Assembly: GCF_043290135.1 (NCBI RefSeq)
Contig: NC_134702.1
Location: 91,487,819-91,551,818, forward strand
Origin: Rhipicephalus microplus
Lineage: Eukaryota > Arthropoda > Arachnida > Ixodida > Ixodidae
Length of the DNA: 64,000 nucleotides
Direction: 5' to 3'
This document shows, piece after piece, positions 1,891 through 60,059 of the stretch (its first letter is position 1; each line of letters starts with the position of its first letter). A model generated the notes under the pieces. That model saw only the letters and a list, made by a program, of their open reading frames with translations. It made no database searches and had not been told where the DNA came from. Both the position numbers and the translations under genes were made by a program.

Positions 1891-2973
1891 GGCGAGAGCG
1901 ACTCGATTAAACCTCTGCTAAAAACAGATTCACACGAATATGCTGTATACGCATAACGATCTCTTCCCCACCTATTCCCAAAGAGCGGCGAAGAGCCGCC
2001 CTCTTCTTTAAAATAAAGGTTCAATTCCTCCATTCATACAACTTCCTCCATCACGATGTATTGTTGTAGAGCTAAGCGTACATTTTGAGTTCGCACTAGT
2101 ACAAGCTTTTATATCACATCAGCACAGTTTACGTATATACTTTAACATGACATTCTTCTAAAGTAGCACCATATATCTCCTAGCTCCTGCCAGGCTTCAA
2201 CAGTTTTGGTCTCCCACCCTTCGTCTCTCATTGTCAATTCTCAGTAACCCTGTCGTTCTTGATGCGTAAAAGAGCGGACAACGGAAGCTAATTGCAAAGT
2301 CCAGCGGGAAAGCCGCCGCGAGGGGGATGAGAAGGATGGCCGAGGGTGTGTAGCATGCAGACGGGAGATCACTATCTTCAAATATAGTTCGCCGCCCGCG
2401 TTCCCCCGTTCAGGCAAGCAAAAGGAAGAAGAAGACGAAGAATGAAGAACCACGCGGCAAACAGAAGCTACGCCGAAGACACTGCCAGGCGCTGTTGTCG
2501 TTGAAGGCATAACTTGCGTCTCGGCTTCGCCTTTGTTCGCGTCTGCGCTCTCGCCAACCGCACCGTCCCTGCCGCGTTCTCTCTTACTGTTTCCTTTGAC
2601 TGCACTTTTTGTCCTCGCCAGTAGCAGTATGGTAGCATTACCCGGGAGGCGCTTACGCAGCGAGAAGATGATGATCGCTACCTTTTCGGCCATTTTTGTT
2701 CTTCTCAACGCGTCTCGTCGGGCGATGGCACAGTTCTTATCTTTCGGTTCCGAAAAAGGAAGGCATGCCGTCCATGGTCAAGCGAGTTGGCGAATTCCTC
2801 GTGCGCACCGAGCGTATTCGTTGGCGTGGTCAAGTCGAGCTCTGTCTGCGGTGTGCATACATTGTTCCGCTGCCATGTCCCCCGGACCAGCAGGCGTCCG
2901 TCGTCGGAGGAATTCACGGTCACACCCGTGATGCACAGAGCAGCGCGCGATCTCTTAGTGGAACTTTTCGGAG
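1891..2973. other. Unassigned DNA with a GC-rich stretch
   Basis: From about 2240 to 2960 the sequence is GC-rich and open frames exceed 130 codons on both strands at once. That is what base composition alone gives. None resembles a known protein. Confidence 0.35.
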
Positions 2974-3188
2974 AGTATGTATGTATGTATGTATGTATGT
3001 ATGTATGTATGTATGTATGTATGTATGTATGTATGTACGCACGTATGTATGTATGTATGTATGTATGTATGTATGTATGTATGTATGTATGTATGTATGT
3101 ATGTATGTATGTATGTATGTATGTATGTATGTATGTATGTATGTATGTATGTATGTATGTATGTATGTATGTATGTATGTATGTATGT
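2974..3188. repeat. (GTAT)n microsatellite
   Basis: About 53 units of GTAT, interrupted once near 3036-3046 by a GTACGCACGT variant. The CMYV and HTYI repeat frames across it are artefacts. Confidence 0.95.
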
Positions 3189-4235
3189 TGGTTCGTTCAT
3201 ATGCGACTGCAGTGCGTTCGTTTTACACGTTGATTCCACGAACAGCGATTGAACGAACAGAAACAGCGAGACCTGCAAACATGTATGTAAGGGCTTATTG
3301 TCAGCAGGAGTACCCCGAGCTCACCAACTCGGGAACATTGATTCGAAAAATAAATGTTTATTTCATTATCAGCAGGAGTGCATCTCAGATTGGACCAAAT
3401 TGCTTGCTACATAGCTTGCACTGACGCTCTAGCCAAAAGCACGCTGCTGGTGTCTCTGAAGTTGATTTTGATACAGAATTACTAACTAAACCAGCCAGAT
3501 GTTCTTGCAGAGGCACTTCACGAGCAGAACATTCAAGCAACCGAACAAAAGTCGATGTTTGAAAACACCGTGTTTCAGAACATCAGCGTTAGAGAAAAAA
3601 AAATCAAGGCGAAATTTCAACGTACCAACGTACTCCCGAGAATGCGACGCGATGTACAACCTACAATCAGGTACCGTTTGCGCTGTCTTCTCATTTATCT
3701 ACGATACATCGCTTCCCAACGGCAAGCTTAAAGGGATACTGAACAAAATTTTTGGCGCCAAGATTTTTAGACAAACTGAAATATTGATCGCTTGAATCGA
3801 TAGTGACAATTTTCGTTCTAGGCAGTTACTACGGAAAATTATTGAATTTAAAGTGTTTTTCACGAACTGCCGCGTCTAACGGCCGTGCTGTGAATGTATT
3901 TAACGATGTAGAGTACGATGTATACTCAACACTCTAGCAGCGGATTAAGCTAAAGCATGCCTGGCCTAGAGGAGCGGCACGTGCGCACTCTAGCCCGGCT
4001 GTGGCTAAAGTTCGACGATTGAAAGTACGATGTGCTATGGGAGCGCAATAACCTGTTTAGAAAAAAAGCTTTTTGACACTATGTACAGAGAACAAAGATT
4101 TCATAACATTTCAGTAGTAAAAGCACATACACTTTGGCACATCGATGTACCAAGACAAACATCACTACGATGCAATGAAGACATCTTTGCCCCAATATAC
4201 ATGACAATATATCCTCAACTCATTGTGTTTAGAAA
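3189..4235. other. Unassigned AT-rich DNA with repeat remnants
   Basis: Two weak remnants are visible. A TTAAAGGGATACTGAAC motif near 3726 resembles the start of TTAA-flanked tick repeats. A block near 3900-3935 (ACGATGTAGAGTACG) resembles the AGTACT monomers described at 30329. No coding sequence was recognised. Confidence 0.35.
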
Positions 4236-12025: not shown

Positions 12026-12489
12026 TCGGCTCTCCACAAAGGAGCGATGCTCAACACCGAAGGAAAGAAAGCAGGATATTTGAACTAACGTGTGCCGCGG
12101 ATATACCGCCCGCATGGTCTGCCACTTTCTCGAGTCGTCTAATCGGAGAAGGCAGCGTTCACTCGTGAGAGATGCTAAAGATGGATTATAATGAGTGCGG
12201 CAGAACGCGCTGCAACAGATGACCACGAACGTACAACGTATACCAACGCGCACTTGAGTGCACTATGCAAGGCAACACCATGCTTGAGACGCAGCCGAGC
12301 GCGTCTACAGAAACGGCAAAGGCTGCTTGCCAAGCATCAAAAAGTGGCTTTCTAAGCCAAGCAATATGGCAAAGACTAACGAAAGCATGTACACATATCG
12401 TTCGTGGTTCATTAGAGGCGAAACTCCTAAAGCCGCAGGTCATTCCATACATGTCTCCTTGTGACCGGTTCGTAACCACCTATAGTTGT

Positions 12490-12850
12490 ATGACTCCCTC
12501 AGCAGGTAGTGCTAGTGTGAGTGACAGACAGAGAGACAGAAGGACGGACGAACAGAGGCTCGGACGGACGGATGGAAGCATGGACGGACAGACAGACGGA
12601 CGGATGTACGGGCGGACACCCAGAAGCACAGACAGGAAAACGGGTGGATATATAGATGCACGGATGGATGGATGGATGGATGGATGGATGGATGGATGGA
12701 TGGATGGATGGATGGATGGATGGATGGATGGATGGATGGATGGATGGATGGATGGATGGATGGATGGATGAATAGACGGACGTCGACCTATACACACGGA
12801 CGGACGGACGTCTCGCCGCACTCATCATCCACTGCGTGGATATGCTGTGA
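12490..12850 (+). repeat. GGAC/GGAT minisatellite repeat, copy 1
   Basis: Imperfect GGAC-rich tetranucleotides (12520-12640) run into a clean GGAT array (12661-12770) and a short GGAC run. They end in the conserved tail CGTGGATATGCTGTGATT near 12835, shared with the copies near 29330 and 43385. The left arm of the family is absent here. Confidence 0.7.
12661..12770. repeat. (GGAT)n microsatellite
   Basis: About 27 near-perfect GGAT units. The MDGW and IHPS repeat frames are artefacts of the array. Confidence 0.95.
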
Positions 12851-39257: not shown

Positions 39258-40970
<1,713 letters not shown>

Positions 40971-40975
40971 TAATA

Positions 40976-41671
40976 TGCTCGTGCAAGTCCGAGCTGCGTC
41001 TTCTCGCTTGGCTGCGCATTGAAAGACTCCGTTTCGCTGCCCCTACTCGCTAGGCGGTGTGTTCGAGCGCTATCATCAGATCTCGTAAACTGCTGTGCCG
41101 GGTGCCTATAGGCAACTCTACATGGGAGAGCATAAAGCCGTCTCGTGGGCCTCACACCTGATAAGGCCCTGTTGATGCTCCGAAATGGTTCAGAAAAAGG
41201 AGTTGACGATTTAGAGTACTCGGTACTCTACTATGGGAGAGCTGTAAGCCGTCCCTTGGGCTTCTCAATAGATGAGCCGAACGAATCAGCGGGGAGCTCC
41301 ATAGATACACGGTTGTGTTTTTGGCGCAGTGAAGCAAACGCCTCAGGCAAGGCATAATGTTTTAATGCCTTCAAAATGTTCCAAGTTGGCCCCGGTAAAA
41401 ACCTATCACCAAGGAGCCGAAACCCGTGAATAACTGCAAATGATGGTGGCGGATACCACTATCGTCAAAGGCGACGTACTCTTTTTAATCTAATCACACA
41501 AATAACCATTTTCCCTCAGAGAAGCATGTTATACATATTCTGCAGGTGGTGAATATCATATATCATGACAACGCCAGCTTCGAGGGGAAATGTGTTACCA
41601 GCATATACGTTTGTACTTTTGAGAGCAGCTCATTGAAACCGAGGATCCTCCATTAGTGAGACTTCAATGGG
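40976..41671. other. Unassigned DNA with two inverted AGTACT monomers
   Basis: At 41108-41262, minus orientation, two monomer parts about 113 bp apart (ATGGGAGAGC..AAGCCGTC twice, with GATTTAGAGTACTCGGTACT at 41207). The rest is unassigned. It lies between the 3' ends of copies B and C. Confidence 0.5.
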
Positions 41672-45494: not shown

Positions 45495-45497
45495 TAA

Positions 45498-45547
45498 AGC
45501 CCAAACTCCATAAGCGCGAAAATGCACGCGACAGCGACGAGCGACGC
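45498..45547 (+). repeat. Harbinger left terminal inverted repeat
   Basis: Fifty bases, identical to the inverse of 51332-51381. The sequence just inside (to about 45640) is dense in CGCGCGAC/TCGCGCGA motifs, which recur inside the right end and could be sites for the element's own DNA-binding protein. Confidence 0.97.
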
Positions 45548-45758
45548 TATGAGCGACGAAACAGGGCGGTCGCGCGACGTGTCGCGTACTCATTTTCGCG
45601 CGATCGCTCGGTTCTCCAGATTTGGAAACCGTCGCTCATCGCCCGGAAGTGCTGGGCTCAAGCAGCCAATAGAAAAAAACCGGAAAAGGATATACATCAG
45701 TGACGTACTGCCGGTTGTTTCCACGTGATTTTCAGCGTGCTCTCACAACTATCCCAAC
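45548..45758 (+). promoter_or_regulatory. Subterminal promoter region of the MADF gene
   Basis: CpG-rich, with CGCGCGAC/TCGCGCGA copies (45570-45610), CAGCCAATAG (CCAAT box, about 45661) and CCACGTGA (E-box, about 45721), and no TATA box. The start codon is at 45759. Promoter function is inferred from position and motifs. Confidence 0.5.
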
Positions 45759-46726
45759 ATGGCGAACGGTGATGAGCGCAACGCTTACAATGAGCGCCTC
45801 ATTGATGTAATCGAACGAGAACGGCCGCTATGGGACCTACGCGACCGGAATTACAAGTCCCGCGCCGTCACTGACGCGGCCTGGCGGCACGTTGCAACAG
45901 TGATGGGATCCACTGGTGAGTTGTGTTTTGCAATCTGCGTACAAGCGACGTTCGCGCCAAAACTGCTGCATGGCCATTGTGTGCGGGCATTGTGTACAAC
46001 TTTCCTTGATTTATGCGCAGTTGCTGAAGTGAAGGCGAGGTGGAAGAACCTTCGAGATACCTTTAGGCGTGTCCTTAAGGAGCGGACACGCGCACTGAAG
46101 AGCGGGGCGCCTGCCGACGATGAATTGGACGAGTCTACTAAATGGCATTTTTTTAGTAGGCTCCTGTTTCTTAAGGAGACAATGGAAGGGAGGCCGTAAG
46201 TAATCGACCTTTTTTTACGCCAAACGCTCATTCAGATTAGTTTACTCTAAACAAAGGCGTGAATGAAGATAAATACAATATTTAGAGAAGTCGCAGCTCA
46301 AAAGCTGGTGTTGCATGTTGAAAATTGTGCTGAGAGGCATACTATGTATTACCTTATAGGACAAGTGGGAACGTGGAACCCCTGCCTTCCAGGGAGAGTG
46401 CACCTGATGTTCTGGCACCAGAACCAGAGTGCATTCTTGAAGACGTGTCTGATGAGCTTCCTGGAAATCAGGGGACGGCCACCAGTTCGGGTTTACCACC
46501 ACCGCCAAAAAAAAAAAAACGGAAGCGTTCCAAATACGATGACGAAATTGAAGAACTCTCAAAATTTATCACAGAAAAGCCCGATGAGCATGAACGCTTC
46601 GGTGCATTTTTGGTTGAAAAGATGAGACGTGTACCTCCAGACCTCGTGGATGTAATGCAATTACAGTTACTGGAGACAGTCACCAAGTTTCTGAACCCAG
46701 TAACTGTAGTACAGCCAGTTGATTAG
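45759..46726 (+). CDS. Harbinger companion protein, MADF domain plus BESS-like motif
   Basis: Three exons (45759-45915, 46021-46195, 46360-46726) with GTGAGT..GCAG and GTAAGT..ATAG introns join in phase to give 232 aa. Residues 13-103 form a MADF domain, a Myb/SANT relative: LIDVIERERPLWD, AWRHVATVMG, then WKNLRDTFRR and WHFFSRLLFL. A proline stretch and KKKKRKR (about 161-169) make a likely nuclear localisation signal. Residues 191-221 (FGAFLVEKMRRVPPDLVDVM) resemble a BESS protein-interaction motif. In PIF/Harbinger elements the second protein is Myb-like and is thought to carry the transposase to the nucleus and the transposon ends. The start follows the promoter region directly; no upstream in-frame ATG is needed. 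A minus-strand transposase gene converges on it. Whether it binds this element's ends is inference. Confidence 0.88.
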
Positions 46727-46770
46727 GTTTTGTTGCTCACTTATTTTGTAACGGTAGCATTTTTCTCAAT

Positions 46771-47042
46771 TGAGGTGCACGCAAAAAATTGGAGCACAAA
46801 AGGAAGACACCTAGACAGTGTGCTGTGTCTATTGATTGATTGATTTGTGATTTTTCACGTCCCAAAACCACCATTTGATTATGAGAGACGCCGTAGTGGA
46901 GGGCTCCGGAAATTTCGACCACCTGGGGTTCTTTAACGTGCACCCAAATCTGAGCACACGGGCCTACAACATTTCCGCCTCCATATAGTGTGCTGTGTCT
47001 AGGTGTCTTCCTTTTGTGCTGCAATTCCTTTCGTGCACCTCA
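46771..47042. mobile_element. Hairpin element split by a SINE
   Basis: The left arm (46771-46816: TGAGGTGCACGC, GGAGCACAAAAGGAAGACAC, CTAGACA) is the inverse of the right arm (about 46996-47042) with a few mismatches. Without the SINE the two arms would be separated by only a few bases, forming an almost perfect hairpin of about 115 bp. A foldback MITE of unknown family. Confidence 0.75.
46817..47000 (-). mobile_element. 5'-truncated Ruka-like SINE in the hairpin
   Basis: The SINE is 46831-46986: a TTGATTGATTGAT tail, CGTCCCAAAACCACCAT, GGAGGGCTCCGGAAATTTCG, cut off at CGCCTCCATAT before the tRNA-like head. AGTGTGCTGTGTCT is duplicated exactly at 46817-46830 and 46987-47000. It sits in the loop of the hairpin element, downstream of the MADF gene's stop codon. 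Confidence 0.9.
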
Positions 47043-47556
47043 GTCAAGAACGTCAAGTGTTCTCGTCTGTTCCTTCTCACGTGTCTTGTACTTCAAGACA
47101 TCAACAGTCAACTGTTGCAATGCTCATATATTGTGCCGTATGCTACCTCACCTATATTCCGTAGTTTCATGGTCGGTCGGTTGTCATTAAGAGGACAAAT
47201 TCATTTTTTCCCATTCTGTGATAACATCGGTGGCGTGGTAACATGTTGGCGCAATGTTCCATACTCTGTGTAATAATGCACCACGACAGGTTCTACTGCT
47301 GTGCAATGTGTAACATATCACTAGTCATTGTATGAGTTTTTGTGGTCATATTGTCAGCACTGTGATATTGCAGATACTAGTGGCATGCATAATATGTGCA
47401 CCTTAACAAGTTTGCAAATTGATTTTGTTTGTTCAAGACATTCAACAAGTACCTGAATTTTTTTCCATACTGTTATGAGTCACTAATGTGTTCATTTGAA
47501 GAAACTTTTATGGGTGTGGTATAACGTACGAGTTTAGACGTGTATACACATTTCTT

Positions 47557-48080
47557 ACATGAGTTGTAAACTGCGCAATGTGTTTGTTGTAGATGTGTGA
47601 ATATATTTCTATTTTACACTGCCAGAGTGCGAGTTGTACATTGTGATAATAATCACATTTTTTACAGGAGTTGTAAACTGAGCAATGTGTTTGTTGTAGA
47701 TGTGTGAATATATTTCTATTTTACACTGCCAGAGTGCGAGTTGTACATTGTGATAATAATCACATTTTTTACAGGAGTTGTAAACTGAGCAATCTGTTTG
47801 TTGTAGATGTGTGAATATATTTCTATTTTACACTGCCAGAGTGCGAGTTGTACATTGTGATAATAATCACATTTTTTACAGGAGTTGTAAACTGAGCAAT
47901 GTGTTTGTTGTAGATGTGTGAATATATTTCTATTTTACACTGCCAGAGTGCGAGTTGTACATTGTGATAATAATCACATTTTTTACAGGAGTTGTAAACT
48001 GAGCAATGTGTTTGTTGTAGATGTGTGAATATATTTCTATTTTACACTGCCAGAGTGCGAGTTGTACATTGTGATAATAA
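47557..48080. repeat. Five-copy 107-bp tandem repeat inside the Harbinger
   Basis: Units start at 47557, 47664, 47771, 47878 and 47985 (each begins ACA(G/T)GAGTTGTAAACTG). Units two to five are almost identical; the first and the edge of the last are diverged. Each contains CAATGTGTTTGTTGTAGATG, ATATATTTCTATTTTACACT and GATAATAATCACA. They lie in the 3' region between the two convergent genes. Confidence 0.97.
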
Positions 48081-48097
48081 TTATTAGTCAATTTATA

Positions 48098-48215
48098 TCC
48101 CTATTTTATTCCTATGTGCTGCTGTGCCATGTTGACCATACCACATTCACTAGTCTTTTTATTTTATTTCTATGTGCTGCTGTGCATTGTTAACTATACC
48201 GTATTTCCTTGTCAT
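48098..48215. repeat. Diverged tandem duplication and polyadenylation region
   Basis: Two units of about 65 bp beginning TTCCTATGTGCTGCTGTG/TTTCTATGTGCTGCTGTG. TTTTATT motifs (48104, 48162) give AATAAA on the minus strand for the transposase gene, and AATAAA at about 48236 could serve the plus-strand gene, so the two transcripts may overlap at their 3' ends. Confidence 0.65.
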
Positions 48216-48482
48216 TGTTTTTCAAGGAAAAGTGCAATAAAATTTTGCCCTGAAACTGTGTACTTTAAACCTACCTCAAAAAGCTTGCACGAGCTATGTG
48301 TGCCTACAGCTTGTCCCACTGTCACCACAGTCCAATGCAAAACACTAAATATATTTAAGAGGGGTTCTGAAGAAGGAGCTCATCACTGCAGGGCCTCTCT
48401 GCCAAAGCATCAAGAAGGGTAGCCCTGAAAAGGGCTGTTTGTGTCGAATTTCTTGGCGGTCGGTGCACAGGCATGAGTTAAT

Positions 48483-50951
48483 TCAAGGGTTATGCGGGGC
48501 AACTCCGGGCAGCTTCCATTGCCAAGGCACTTGGCCTTCTTCACTGAAATACCTCACGAACTCTTGCCGAACTGCGCTGGCCACTTTAGAGCAGTTGCGG
48601 GCCTTTGGCTTTTCGAGTCCAAACACTGTTGTGCTTCCTGGTACTTGTCTCCAAGCACCACCGCTCACATTTCCAAAGGTGTCTTGAAAATCCGCGTAGC
48701 CAGGAGGGCAGTACGTTGAAGCAGCGTTTGATGATAAGAAGTTGTGCAGCACGCATGTTGCTTTCACAACGGCCTCCACATTCTCCGGCTCCAAGTTTAT
48801 TTGCCTCTCGTAGATCCGCCAGCGAGAGACAAGAATGCCGAAGGCGTTTTCCACACAGCGCCTGTAAAAAAAAAAAAAAAAAAAAAACTTCTGTTGTAGC
48901 GTACCCTAGAGAAGGGAACTTACAGTAATTGCAAGCAATACACATCTACCATAACCTGCCTATTCAAGGTGCAATGATACGTTATAAAGAAATGTGCTAA
49001 TCATTTTTTAATATCGGAAAGTTTTTGCTTTGTTAAAGTACTAATCCCTGATAATTAGGAAATCATAGCTTCAGACAAGCATGCGCTGAGGGTGGTGCTG
49101 TTCAGTACTTGCAATTCATATACTTAAGCAGAACTAAGGCTAGATTTCAGATTGATGCTGAACTATTTACAAAGAGTCTTCCTGGCTGCAGCAACCTTTG
49201 CACGAGGAAATGGCATATGAAGCCACCTAAAGTGCATTTGTTTGCCACACGTTAGTTGATCTACCCTGAAGGCGTGAGAGTAAGAAGAAAGGACACAATT
49301 GAGCTTAGAGGACAGGACAGAGTTCTTTAGCGCTGGGTACAGACCTTGCACGACTAAGGCGGTAGTTGTAGATCACCTCCGCAGGTACACTCCGGCTCCC
49401 TGGTAGTGGCCTCATGAAGTCTGGGCACAACTGGAAGGCCTCATCGCCAACAAACACATGAGGACAAACTACTCCTGACCTTGGGAGCATGGCTGCTCGA
49501 GGTAGGCTGAGCTTGCCCTCATGCAGTCGCTCGCCGATGGGAGAATCTTGAAAAATTCCCCCATCGCTGAACCTTCCAGGTGCACCCACATTCACCAACC
49601 TGAACAGGTATTGGCTATCGACGACAGCCATCAATACAATGGAATGGGTTCCCTGAAAGCAATGAAACAACTGTCACAAAAGTACTTGCCATCAAAACTA
49701 CTTATATTGCATAACACTTAGCTGCATTACTGATAGGTACAGAAAAATAAGGTGAAACCTTTGGTCTGTAAACTGCCTAGCATGCATTAGGCACCAAATC
49801 GCAATAATCTTGTACTGAGGTCTGGGATACTCCTATTGATGAAGGAGATGACCCTTTAGCAGCAAACATTCCACATGCATTGATGCAATTTTCTGCTGCA
49901 TACCTTGTAATTGAAGTACAAACTTCCACCATTGCGGGGGCATTTAATTTGAATATGCTTGCCGTCGACCGCTCCAATGCAATTTGGGAACTGCCAACGG
50001 TTGCAGAACCCAGCAGCGATTTCCAGCCACTCTTCTTCTGTTGGTGTCTGAAAAAGCAGCAATTTCAAGTTATACATTATGTTGTTACAAACATAACCAG
50101 TTGAATGCACTCCTGCCTTTTAAACATTATGGGCCCACCCTTTCCTGTGCATGGGATAAGGTATTAAATCACTTAGTGGCACAAACTCCGTACCATGATA
50201 TGTGCTTTAATTCACTCAACCATATCAAAGTTATGTCATTACACTTTGAATGAGACATAGCACCCAGATGCATACAGATGCTCGACGCTGTATGCATACC
50301 TTCATGTATTCAGGAGCCAAGACTTCCCACAGCACGGTGCAGGTTTTGTGAATGATCCTCCGCGCCGTCTCGATGCCCACACGGAATGCCATGGCTGCGT
50401 CCCTCACCAGCATACCCGACGACAGGTACCTGTAATACAAATCAATGTAAATGCGGGAAGTGTGTCACGACAACCCAGGCACGCGCTGCACAATACTTTC
50501 AAGTATAACAAGCGCACATCACCAACATTCACTTCCTGGAAAATGAAAAGCTGTGCAGGCACGTATACGCAGTCAAAGTGGTCCTACCTCAAGGTCAGCG
50601 CGAGGCGCTCCCCAGAAGAAATCGGTTCCCTCGAGGGGCATTGGTCCTTCGTGAGCTTCTCCTTGACCAGGCTGTGCAGCACGTCAAAAGTAGCCGGCGA
50701 CATCCGATAAAACGTGTAGAACAGTGACTCGTCACCGTTCTTCATTTTTTCCATCTGCAAAATACAGCAAACATGCATTTAATTCCACAATTATGACGCG
50801 GTTGTCTCGAAGCACTTACCGCTGTGAAAAACTCGCTTTCACCCGCTCGATTTGCCCATGTCGGCCGGACCCAGTACTTTTTCATAAAAGCTCGCCGTCT
50901 CTTAAGGATGAGGAGCAGCTTCAGAGCAGCTATCTTCCTTTGCCTTTCCAT
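48483..50951 (-). CDS. PIF/Harbinger DDE transposase (HARBI1-like)
   Basis: Six exons on the minus strand: 50951-50820, 50754-50588, 50429-50300, 50047-49904, 49652-49345 and 48861-48483. All introns are GT..AG and phases match, giving 419 aa with no stop. The N-terminal part is basic and helical. A helix-turn-helix-like stretch (LVRDAAMAFRVGIETARRII) lies at about residues 107-126. The catalytic triad is D171 in VDGKHI, D261 in VGDEAF and E298 in ENAFGIL, the DDE_Tnp_4 pattern with RW following the glutamate. Length and layout are usual for the family. It cuts and joins the element's TIRs in the nucleus, probably with the MADF partner. The start was chosen because it opens exon 1 close to the right TIR and no upstream in-frame extension is needed. 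The last intron has a 22-base T-run before its AG. Confidence 0.92.
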
Positions 50952-51331
50952 TTCAAGACGTCAGAAACGAATGAAATTGACGGACGCAAGCAAAACAACG
51001 CAGACAAAGACTACACAGGTAGTTCGCTTCGCCGATGCGCCAAGGATCCACTGCACGTGACCCTGCCCAAGTCACGTGGGCGCAACAAAAAATAACGCAA
51101 TGTTTATTACGCATGTGCATATAAAAAAGTGCTGCAAGGCAATAATAAACACTTTCCGTTCCATTACACAACAATATATTTTATTTTTAAATTGGAAACC
51201 GCTCGCTACGCGGCTTTCTTGGTGCGAGTTGACGGCCTCATGCCAGCAACAGTGGAATTCGCTCGCCGAAGCCGTCGCGTGAATGGAGTTTGCCTGCGCG
51301 AGCGACTGATCGCGCGACGCCGATCTACGTC

Positions 51332-51381
51332 GCGTCGCTCGTCGCTGTCGCGTGCATTTTCGCGCTTATGGAGTTTGGGCT
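51332..51381 (-). repeat. Harbinger right terminal inverted repeat
   Basis: Exact inverse of 45498-45547. Just inside (51250-51331) the GCGCGAC/GTCGCG motifs recur. TAA follows at 51382-51384. Confidence 0.97.
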
Positions 51382-51384
51382 TAA

Positions 51385-57439: not shown

Positions 57440-59027
57440 TTAATACTTGTCAGCAATCCCGCTGTCTTGTAAAAAACGTGTTAATGCTTTTAAAGCGTGG
57501 GACTGTAAAACTCCAGTTGGCCACGGGCCCAGAAGTTTTTTCATGCTAAATGGTCTGTGGTCCAATGCGAACAGTTCGCTTTTAAGACGGCGTCTTGGCG
57601 TGTCATGATGTGGACAGTCTATGAGAAGGTGACATACGTCTTCATCTATAAATCCACAATCGCATTCGGGAGTTTCAGCTCCGCCGATTCTGTGCAAAAA
57701 ATGTTTTGTGTATGCGGTGCCTAGCCTCAATCGGTGAATTAGAGTTTCCATCCTTCTATCTAATGCCAGCGTAATTTTGAATTCAATAAATGGATCTATG
57801 TGATATAAATCGCAGCTCTTTGTACTTTGGTCAAACCAAGCAGTTTTGCTCATTCTGAAAGTTGTATTCTTTATAATACTACGCAATTCATTTTTCGAAA
57901 TCGGTAAAGAAACAGTAACGTCTTTACGATGTGCTTGTCGTGCTGCTTCATCGGCAGCTGTGTTTCCAGGAATGTTGCAGTGGCCAGGTATCCACTGGAA
58001 TTTGATCTCATGTTGCGCCTTCTTTGCTTTAGTGAGCTCCTTCAGCGTTTCGTATGTCATACTATCACTTATTACTGTGCTGTTTGTACTGGAGAGTGAT
58101 CTTAATGCGGCCTGTGAGTCACTGAAAAGTACCCATTTTCTAGCGTCTGCTACCGAGTTTATAAACTTTAGAGCATACAGAATAGCGAAGAGCTCAGATG
58201 TTGTAGATGACGTCGTGCGGCATAATTTAAACGATTCCTGAATATTGAGCTGTGGTATGATAAATGCCGATGTTGAAGACATTGTAGTACTTGAGCCATC
58301 TGTGTAAACATGTATATACCCTGGATACCGCATGTGTATCTGATAAAGCGCTAGTTGTTGAGCAGCTTGGATGAACATGTCTCTCTTTCTAATAATGCCA
58401 TCCACTGAGAATTCAATGCTTGGTATAACAAGCACCCATGGAGGATAGTCCATTTCAGAGTTCCAAAATTCATGTCTGGGTAATATATGTACATTACTCT
58501 GTACTTCGTTATGAGCATTGCTTTTATCTCTTAGTAAAATCTCGAGTGCCAATGGGTGGTCCCTGTGTTGCGTCTGTAAGCGAAAAAAATGGCGGCGTGT
58601 TTCAATTGTTCTCATGACTGGAAAGGGTGGTTGTCGAGTCTCTGTTATGACAAGGCTGCTGGAAGTCGCTCGTGGAACACCTATGCAGACGCGCAGTCCC
58701 CTAGCTAATAGTCTTTGAAGTCGCTCCTCTGAAGTGCGGGAAAAGCCGTGTAACACTGCTGCAGAATATGCAACTTTTTGTCGTATTAAAGCATTGTGAA
58801 CAGCGAGCATGGATGATACAGATCCGCCCCATGATGTCCCAGCAATTCTGCGGAGTATATTCACTAGCGTATTCACCTCGTTTTCGAGTTTCTTTATGTG
58901 AGGTGCCCATGATAGCTGCCTATCAAGTATTACTCTGAGAAATCGATGCTGTGTCACAATCATTAGTGGTTCTTCTTCTAAATTGAGATTGAAGTTCTTT
59001 AACTTCTTACGGGTGAAGGGCAATACA
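57440..59027 (-). pseudogene. LINE ORF2 C-terminal part: RNase H and terminal zinc cluster
   Basis: About 528 LINE-derived codons without a stop. After the RT thumb (WAPHIKKLENEVNTLVNIL near the start) comes RNase H: HVYTDGSSTTMSS (D), TTSELFAILYALKFI (E), LFSDSQAALRSL (D), and WIPGHCNIPGNTAADEAAR (H, D), all four key residues present. The C-terminal cluster is CDCGFIDEDVCHLLIDCPHH, then the conserved LDHRPF...HALKALTRFLQDSGIADKY end. The open frame runs 52 codons further upstream into the inserted element, but those codons are not LINE sequence. The upstream RT half is at 63600-64000. Confidence 0.85.
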
Positions 59028-60059
59028 CACTCTAAGCCAAAAACGGCCGAAATGGGAGCAACGGCTGTTTTTACTCTTTCAGACCGACTGTTACTCTCCG
59101 AAAAGACCAAGTGGAACAAGATGGCCGACTTGTTCGAGAATGTGGGAGCAACTGTATTCATCTTAAGTTTGTAAGGGAGCAACGGAAGGAGGGACCGCTG
59201 TAAATGCTCTCGTCACACAACGGTTACTCCCCGGCAGGACACCGCAGACAAATATGCATGCCGCCCACATTGATATTCATGGGCCAGATTATTGTTTGTT
59301 CTGTGTGCCAAACTTCACCAAACCAAAACAGTGATTCACTTTAGCATCCGCAGATAATAAGATAGCAGCGCTGGCGGAACAGAGAAGGCCTGAGAATACA
59401 GCTACGGCAAGTACCTAACACACGCAGCAGCAGAATGGAGAGTTGGCACGTCAAAGCGGACCGAACGCCGAAACACGTGCAAAACAACGATAAAAAAAAA
59501 AGCCTAGACGCGCCGTTCGTCCGCGAAGGAAGGGCGTCAAAGTCTATCAAGCACCGAAACACGTGCATAAGGAGCCCCCCCCCCCCCCTGATATATCGGA
59601 GAAGAAAAAAAAAGCGGACCCAGATGCGCTTTTCATCAGCCGTACACTTAGTAGCACGCTTCACCGTGTAGTTTGAGGGCAGAATGACAAATCTGCGCCA
59701 TCTGCGCCCGCACGACAAGTGTGGCGCTAGTGTAGTAAGCGATGTATTTTACAAAGTAATTTTTATTGAGTGTTTATGTTTACTAGCACTAAATAAAAAT
59801 TACACTCAATTTTTCATATTTAATTAAGAGTTTTAGTGTACTTCAGTTTTTTTTTGTAAGTGTATAAAGAGAACACACTGAAATCATTGCGCTGACGCCT
59901 GTGCTGCCACTGCTCAACGTTTTTTTTTTTTTTCGGCGCAACTAGGTTCGCGTTCGCACTACTCATATTCATATGGTCTGTCGTCGGCGAGCACATGGAC
60001 ATGCGAGCTTGTGGGCTATGTTTTGATCGTGCGTGTGTGTCGCAGATTTGCGTTTCTAC

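Follow-up and report, generated by a model that had tools for sequence, protein, structure and literature searches.

A structurally complete and probably recently inserted PIF/Harbinger transposon with a MADF partner gene in the tick Rhipicephalus microplus

A 64,000-nucleotide stretch of the Rhipicephalus microplus genome (contig NC_134702.1, positions 91,487,819 to 91,551,818 of the forward strand; hereafter the window) contains a 5884-bp element at 45498–51381 that combines long terminal inverted repeats (TIRs), a target-site duplication (TSD), and two spliced genes, one for a DDE transposase and one for a MADF protein. The best explanation, with a probability of roughly 0.88, is a copy that is complete in structure and inserted recently, belonging to a young PIF/Harbinger family of low copy number in R. 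microplus. It is the best-preserved copy found of this family, and the features predicted from its sequence support structural autonomy.

The two 50-bp TIRs (45498–45547 on the plus strand and 51332–51381 on the minus strand) are identical in inverted orientation at 50/50 positions, and end comparison places a TAA immediately outside each of them (45495–45497 and 51382–51384). PIF/Harbinger elements duplicate TWA. The outermost 27 bp of the TIR, searched with up to three mismatches, had no match in the window beyond the element's two ends and 0 in 100 shuffles, and comparison of the TIR with viral contigs gave no match. The genes are convergent, the MADF gene lying on the plus strand and the transposase gene on the minus strand. 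The stretch between them contains a foldback palindrome, an insert with 15-bp direct repeats and a 107-bp tandem array.

The transposase gene runs from 50951 down to 48483 and is built from six exons, joined across five GT-AG introns into a spliced frame of 419 residues: exon 1 with the start codon (50820–50951), exon 2 (50588–50754), exon 3 (50300–50429), exon 4 with catalytic D171 (49904–50047), exon 5 with catalytic D261 (49345–49652), and exon 6 with catalytic E298 and the stop codon (48483–48861). The protein contains a DDE_Tnp_4 domain (Pfam PF13359, E 2.6e-32, 112 bits against a cut-off of 24.8). The D171/D261/E298 triad is complete, and among the best 120 of 4188 homologs it is kept in 106/110, 104/106 and 108/115, respectively, of those with a residue at the position. 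Annotated full-length transposases from R. appendiculatus (P0001), Dermacentor silvarum (P0003), D. albipictus (P0007) and Ixodes hexagonus (P0012) are collinear with the predicted protein across all five junctions.

The MADF gene consists of three plus-strand exons (45759–45915, 46021–46195 and, with the stop codon, 46360–46726) whose open joined frame encodes a Myb/SANT-like MADF protein of 232 residues (PF10545, E 7.8e-18 in Pfam). Several alternative splice choices also keep the frame open, giving 227 to 235 residues. The 232-residue model uses the same junctions as the annotated R. microplus protein P0121, which by eye is the protein derived with these junctions from another full-length copy, L014. 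The initial annotation had proposed a PIF/Harbinger element with identical 50-bp TIRs, TAA on both sides, two multi-exon genes of 232 and 419 codons in phase without a stop, a complete DDE triad and a Myb-like partner; the DDE_Tnp_4 transposase, the MADF gene and the ends bear this out. Its eight introns were a miscount, the two genes having 2 + 5 = 7.

Copies of the element were sought with a 206-bp left-end query, which gave 1618 first-look candidates; scoring covered 40 of them, every one a match, the window copy included. The right end is also present in 39/39 of the other copies, and 33 of these have matched flanking triplets (17 TTA, 10 TAA, 4 TCA and 2 TGA), 27 of them conforming to TWA. 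Three of the copies are full length: L018 (99.03% identical to the window copy, 56 differences in 5773 positions; triplet TAA), L014 (98.63%, 76 in 5539; TAA) and L021 (98.33%, 98 in 5860; TCA). The largest length differences among the full-length copies stem from the tandem array, which comprises five copies of the 107-bp repeat at 47547–48081. The full-length copies occupy distinct flanks at distant places, each with its own matching triplet. A search for near-identical copies had been proposed at the outset, with the absence of any closer than about 10% as the outcome that would speak against recent movement; the three sisters lie far inside that distance.

The remaining 36 of the 39 copies are short, internally deleted derivatives with the same termini. 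Judged by internal junctions, most belong to three types of about 589, 536 and 597 bp; L015 and L024 are longer. Within the types, represented by 10, 18 and 4 members after L015, L024, L035 and L041 were left out, the median pairwise divergence is 2.4, 2.2 and 3.4%, and the closest pairs differ by 0.5, 0.75 and 2.2%. Empty sites were looked for by comparing the joined flanks of the 40 copies with 355 kb of fetched loci. One derivative, L034 (G000:C11:185317700-185319000), is nested in the end region of an older family member; relatives have an uninterrupted target there, a possible empty site that departs from the expected one by two bases in an A-run and by one triplet base.

Gene intactness across the family was assessed through exon 5 of the transposase. 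All 27 candidates were scored, yielding 31 matches; six short or partial matches were excluded and 25 places (L048–L072) were analysed. The transposase is fully covered and open, with standard splice sites and the full triad, in 6/25 of these places, namely the window copy, its sisters L018 and L014, and three older copies (94.2–96.5%); apart from L021, treated below, the other 18 places have broken or incomplete transposases. The MADF gene was scored in these six and in L021. It is open in the window copy and L014, is frameshifted in L018, where an A-run differs by two bases and may be misread, and is interrupted in the older three by stops at codons 103, 19 and 48, a result that held with a second aligner. 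Both genes are thus open as assembled in two of the six copies, the window copy and L014. L021 has an open MADF gene and a transposase stop at codon 353. The family fits the expectation, voiced in the initial annotation, that mostly dead elements are seen in this genome. Four of the analysed places (L059, L062, L063 and L064, on contigs C178, C120, C22 and C19) have three stops and one insertion in common, as if one dead copy had been duplicated together with its surroundings or the contigs were redundant.

The region between the genes orders the full-length copies relative to a second insertion event. Just past the MADF stop codon lies a foldback palindrome whose 55-nt left arm (46763–46817, plus strand) is 87% complementary to the right arm (46996–47050), and a SINE-like (short interspersed element) insert at 46832–46986 sits in the loop of this palindrome (46763–47050), bounded by perfect 15-bp direct repeats (46817–46831 and 46987–47001). 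We take the insert to be a SINE, putatively Ruka-like; fragments turn up again in the flanking DNA of several copies. PMC3160391 describes Ruka from R. microplus. The insert and both 15-bp repeats are present in 4/4 full-length copies, so the subfamily spread after the insert landed. The insert stretch is missing at the site in the older copies L078 and L080, and L079 aligns through it.

Private changes were counted in the four full-length copies with the tandem array and gapped columns excluded. The window copy has 3 in 1950 coding sites versus 19 in 3371 non-coding sites (uncorrected p = 0.026 in one of four Fisher tests), and the other three full-length copies have no such coding deficit. 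This suggests, cautiously, that the window lineage was under selection until shortly before its insertion. When 12 R. microplus proteins were compared with the 25 local transposases, P0002 and P0004, two of this subfamily, differed from their nearest local transposase at 8/390 and 18/380 positions, part of which comes from annotation. That neither has a close local match would be expected if ticks differed in their insertions, but is weak evidence for it.

High identity among the full-length copies could in principle also result from gene conversion within an old family rather than from recent transposition, and the finding of only four full-length subfamily copies, a small burst, is compatible with this. 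The copies nevertheless sit far apart, in flanks that differ and with TNA duplications of their own, and the 13 informative two-against-two sites all agree with a single tree, pairing the window copy with L018 and L014 with L021, where conversion would tend to scramble such patterns; homogenisation is considered improbable. Still less credible is a domesticated host-gene pair of transposase and MADF protein that is no longer a transposon. Pairs of this kind that were domesticated together are known from insects (PMC9710019), but by the criteria given in that paper domesticated pairs are without the TIRs, TSD and multiple copies that are present here, and domestication was rejected for an element that is multi-copy with intact ends.

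Several observations weigh against reading the element as complete, recently inserted and part of a young family. Six of the 39 other copies have unmatched triplets, and no copy among the matches scored is closer to the window copy than 99.03%. The annotated L014 transposase, P0018, begins within predicted intron 1 and reads beyond the exon 5 donor; the predictions therefore disagree, and the predicted splice sites are not used by every gene model. A further R. microplus protein, P0014, is near L014 (3 differences in 290) and shares its Trp309, which indicates that the lineage of L014 extends beyond this tick. The coding deficit of the window copy is based on small counts and loses significance against the other copies pooled (p = 0.12), and two of its three private coding changes are non-synonymous. 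The MADF protein carries a private Pro165Arg, at a poorly aligned site with 3 homologs, and the transposase carries a private Arg267Cys.

The Arg267Cys change bears on activity. Codon 267 of the window copy (49425–49427, minus strand) is TGC for Cys, and the 24 other local exon-5 places have 22 Arg, 1 His and 1 Gly. The homolog set has Arg in 79, Lys in 16 and Cys in 0 of 107 aligned sequences, so that Cys267 is unique both among the 25 local places and among these homologs. The codon is CGC in 14/19 readable places (of 25), and the change therefore resembles a CpG-type CGC to TGC transition. A sequence search of solved structures gave nothing significant (two chains, E 0.71 and 0.94), and a fold search with the P0001 model (mean predicted local distance difference test score 87) against the PDB returned 137 matches at E ≤ 10 and none at E ≤ 0.001, which provides no structural template against which to assess that residue. 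The private Cys267 would suit a freshly dead copy, in which the hallmarks are intact through youth, the transposase is impaired by Arg267Cys, and family movement comes from other copies or has ceased. L014, the other copy with both genes open, likewise has Gly222Arg at a near-invariant and Arg309Trp at an invariant position of a 32-sequence alignment. Set against this, position 267 is not strictly invariant, with G, T, L or P in a few homologs, and the coding sequence of the window copy has changed less than its non-coding sequence. A freshly dead copy is given slightly less than even odds, and the chance that the window copy encodes a working transposase is put, on the predicted protein, at about one in three. 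We consider it rather unlikely that family members are currently transposing in populations of R. microplus, with the window copy or an undetected near-twin supplying both proteins and the derivatives moving along; if true, such movement would constitute a native pair of an autonomous element and its miniature inverted-repeat transposable elements in a tick. The suggestion in the initial annotation that the copy may still be able to move, or moved recently, accordingly divides: recent movement is upheld by sisters at their own sites and by the matched triplets in most copies, and a continuing ability to move is not.

For the structurally complete, recently inserted copy that we favour, a route of movement can be outlined by analogy with published work on other Harbingers. 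The MADF protein would bind the element ends and bring the DDE transposase into the nucleus, where the transposase would excise the element and paste it into a 3-bp TWA site; the same machinery would mobilise the short derivatives. The window copy may have stood at or close to the source lineage up to its insertion.

PIF/Harbinger elements that pair a transposase gene with a MADF gene are already known. The tick element shares with animal Harbinger elements that have a Myb/SANT-like second gene a DDE transposase, a separate Myb/SANT-like (here MADF) gene and TIRs, as well as the 3-bp duplication and internally deleted derivatives, and nothing categorical differs from the account in PMC9179366. 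PIF elements are described in PMC9710019 as having a 3-bp duplication and a TIR of about 15 bp, which the 50-bp TIR of the tick element exceeds. That paper also covers PIF elements of insects in which a MADF protein accompanies the transposase, as it does here; the events it reports are domesticated genes without TIR or TSD, whereas the tick (arachnid) element has both. The collinear full-length transposases P0001, P0003 and P0012 are 87%, 84% and 70% identical, respectively, and are annotated merely as hypothetical, uncharacterized or unnamed proteins. No study of PIF/Harbinger elements in ticks was found by title or abstract opening among the open-licence papers listed, one of which, the arthropod-wide survey PMC6327564, contains both terms.

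Tick repeats are poorly classified. In the Dermacentor variabilis genome, only about 2.5% is assigned to DNA transposons and about 24% is left unclassified (PMC12341941). The element, with its close sisters and its derivatives, offers an origin for some repeats of this sort in R. microplus and supplies a concrete protein pair and ends for testing; the view of the Harbinger mechanism is unchanged.

Elsewhere in the window, long open frames at 2625–3424, 12223–12771 and 40575–41042 consist largely of simple repeats (for example MYVC and YLSI units) and imply no gene. A 590-residue open frame on the minus strand at 57440–59212 contains an RNase H domain (PF00075, E 2.9e-15) and is probably the tail of a retroelement of the LINE (long interspersed element) type.

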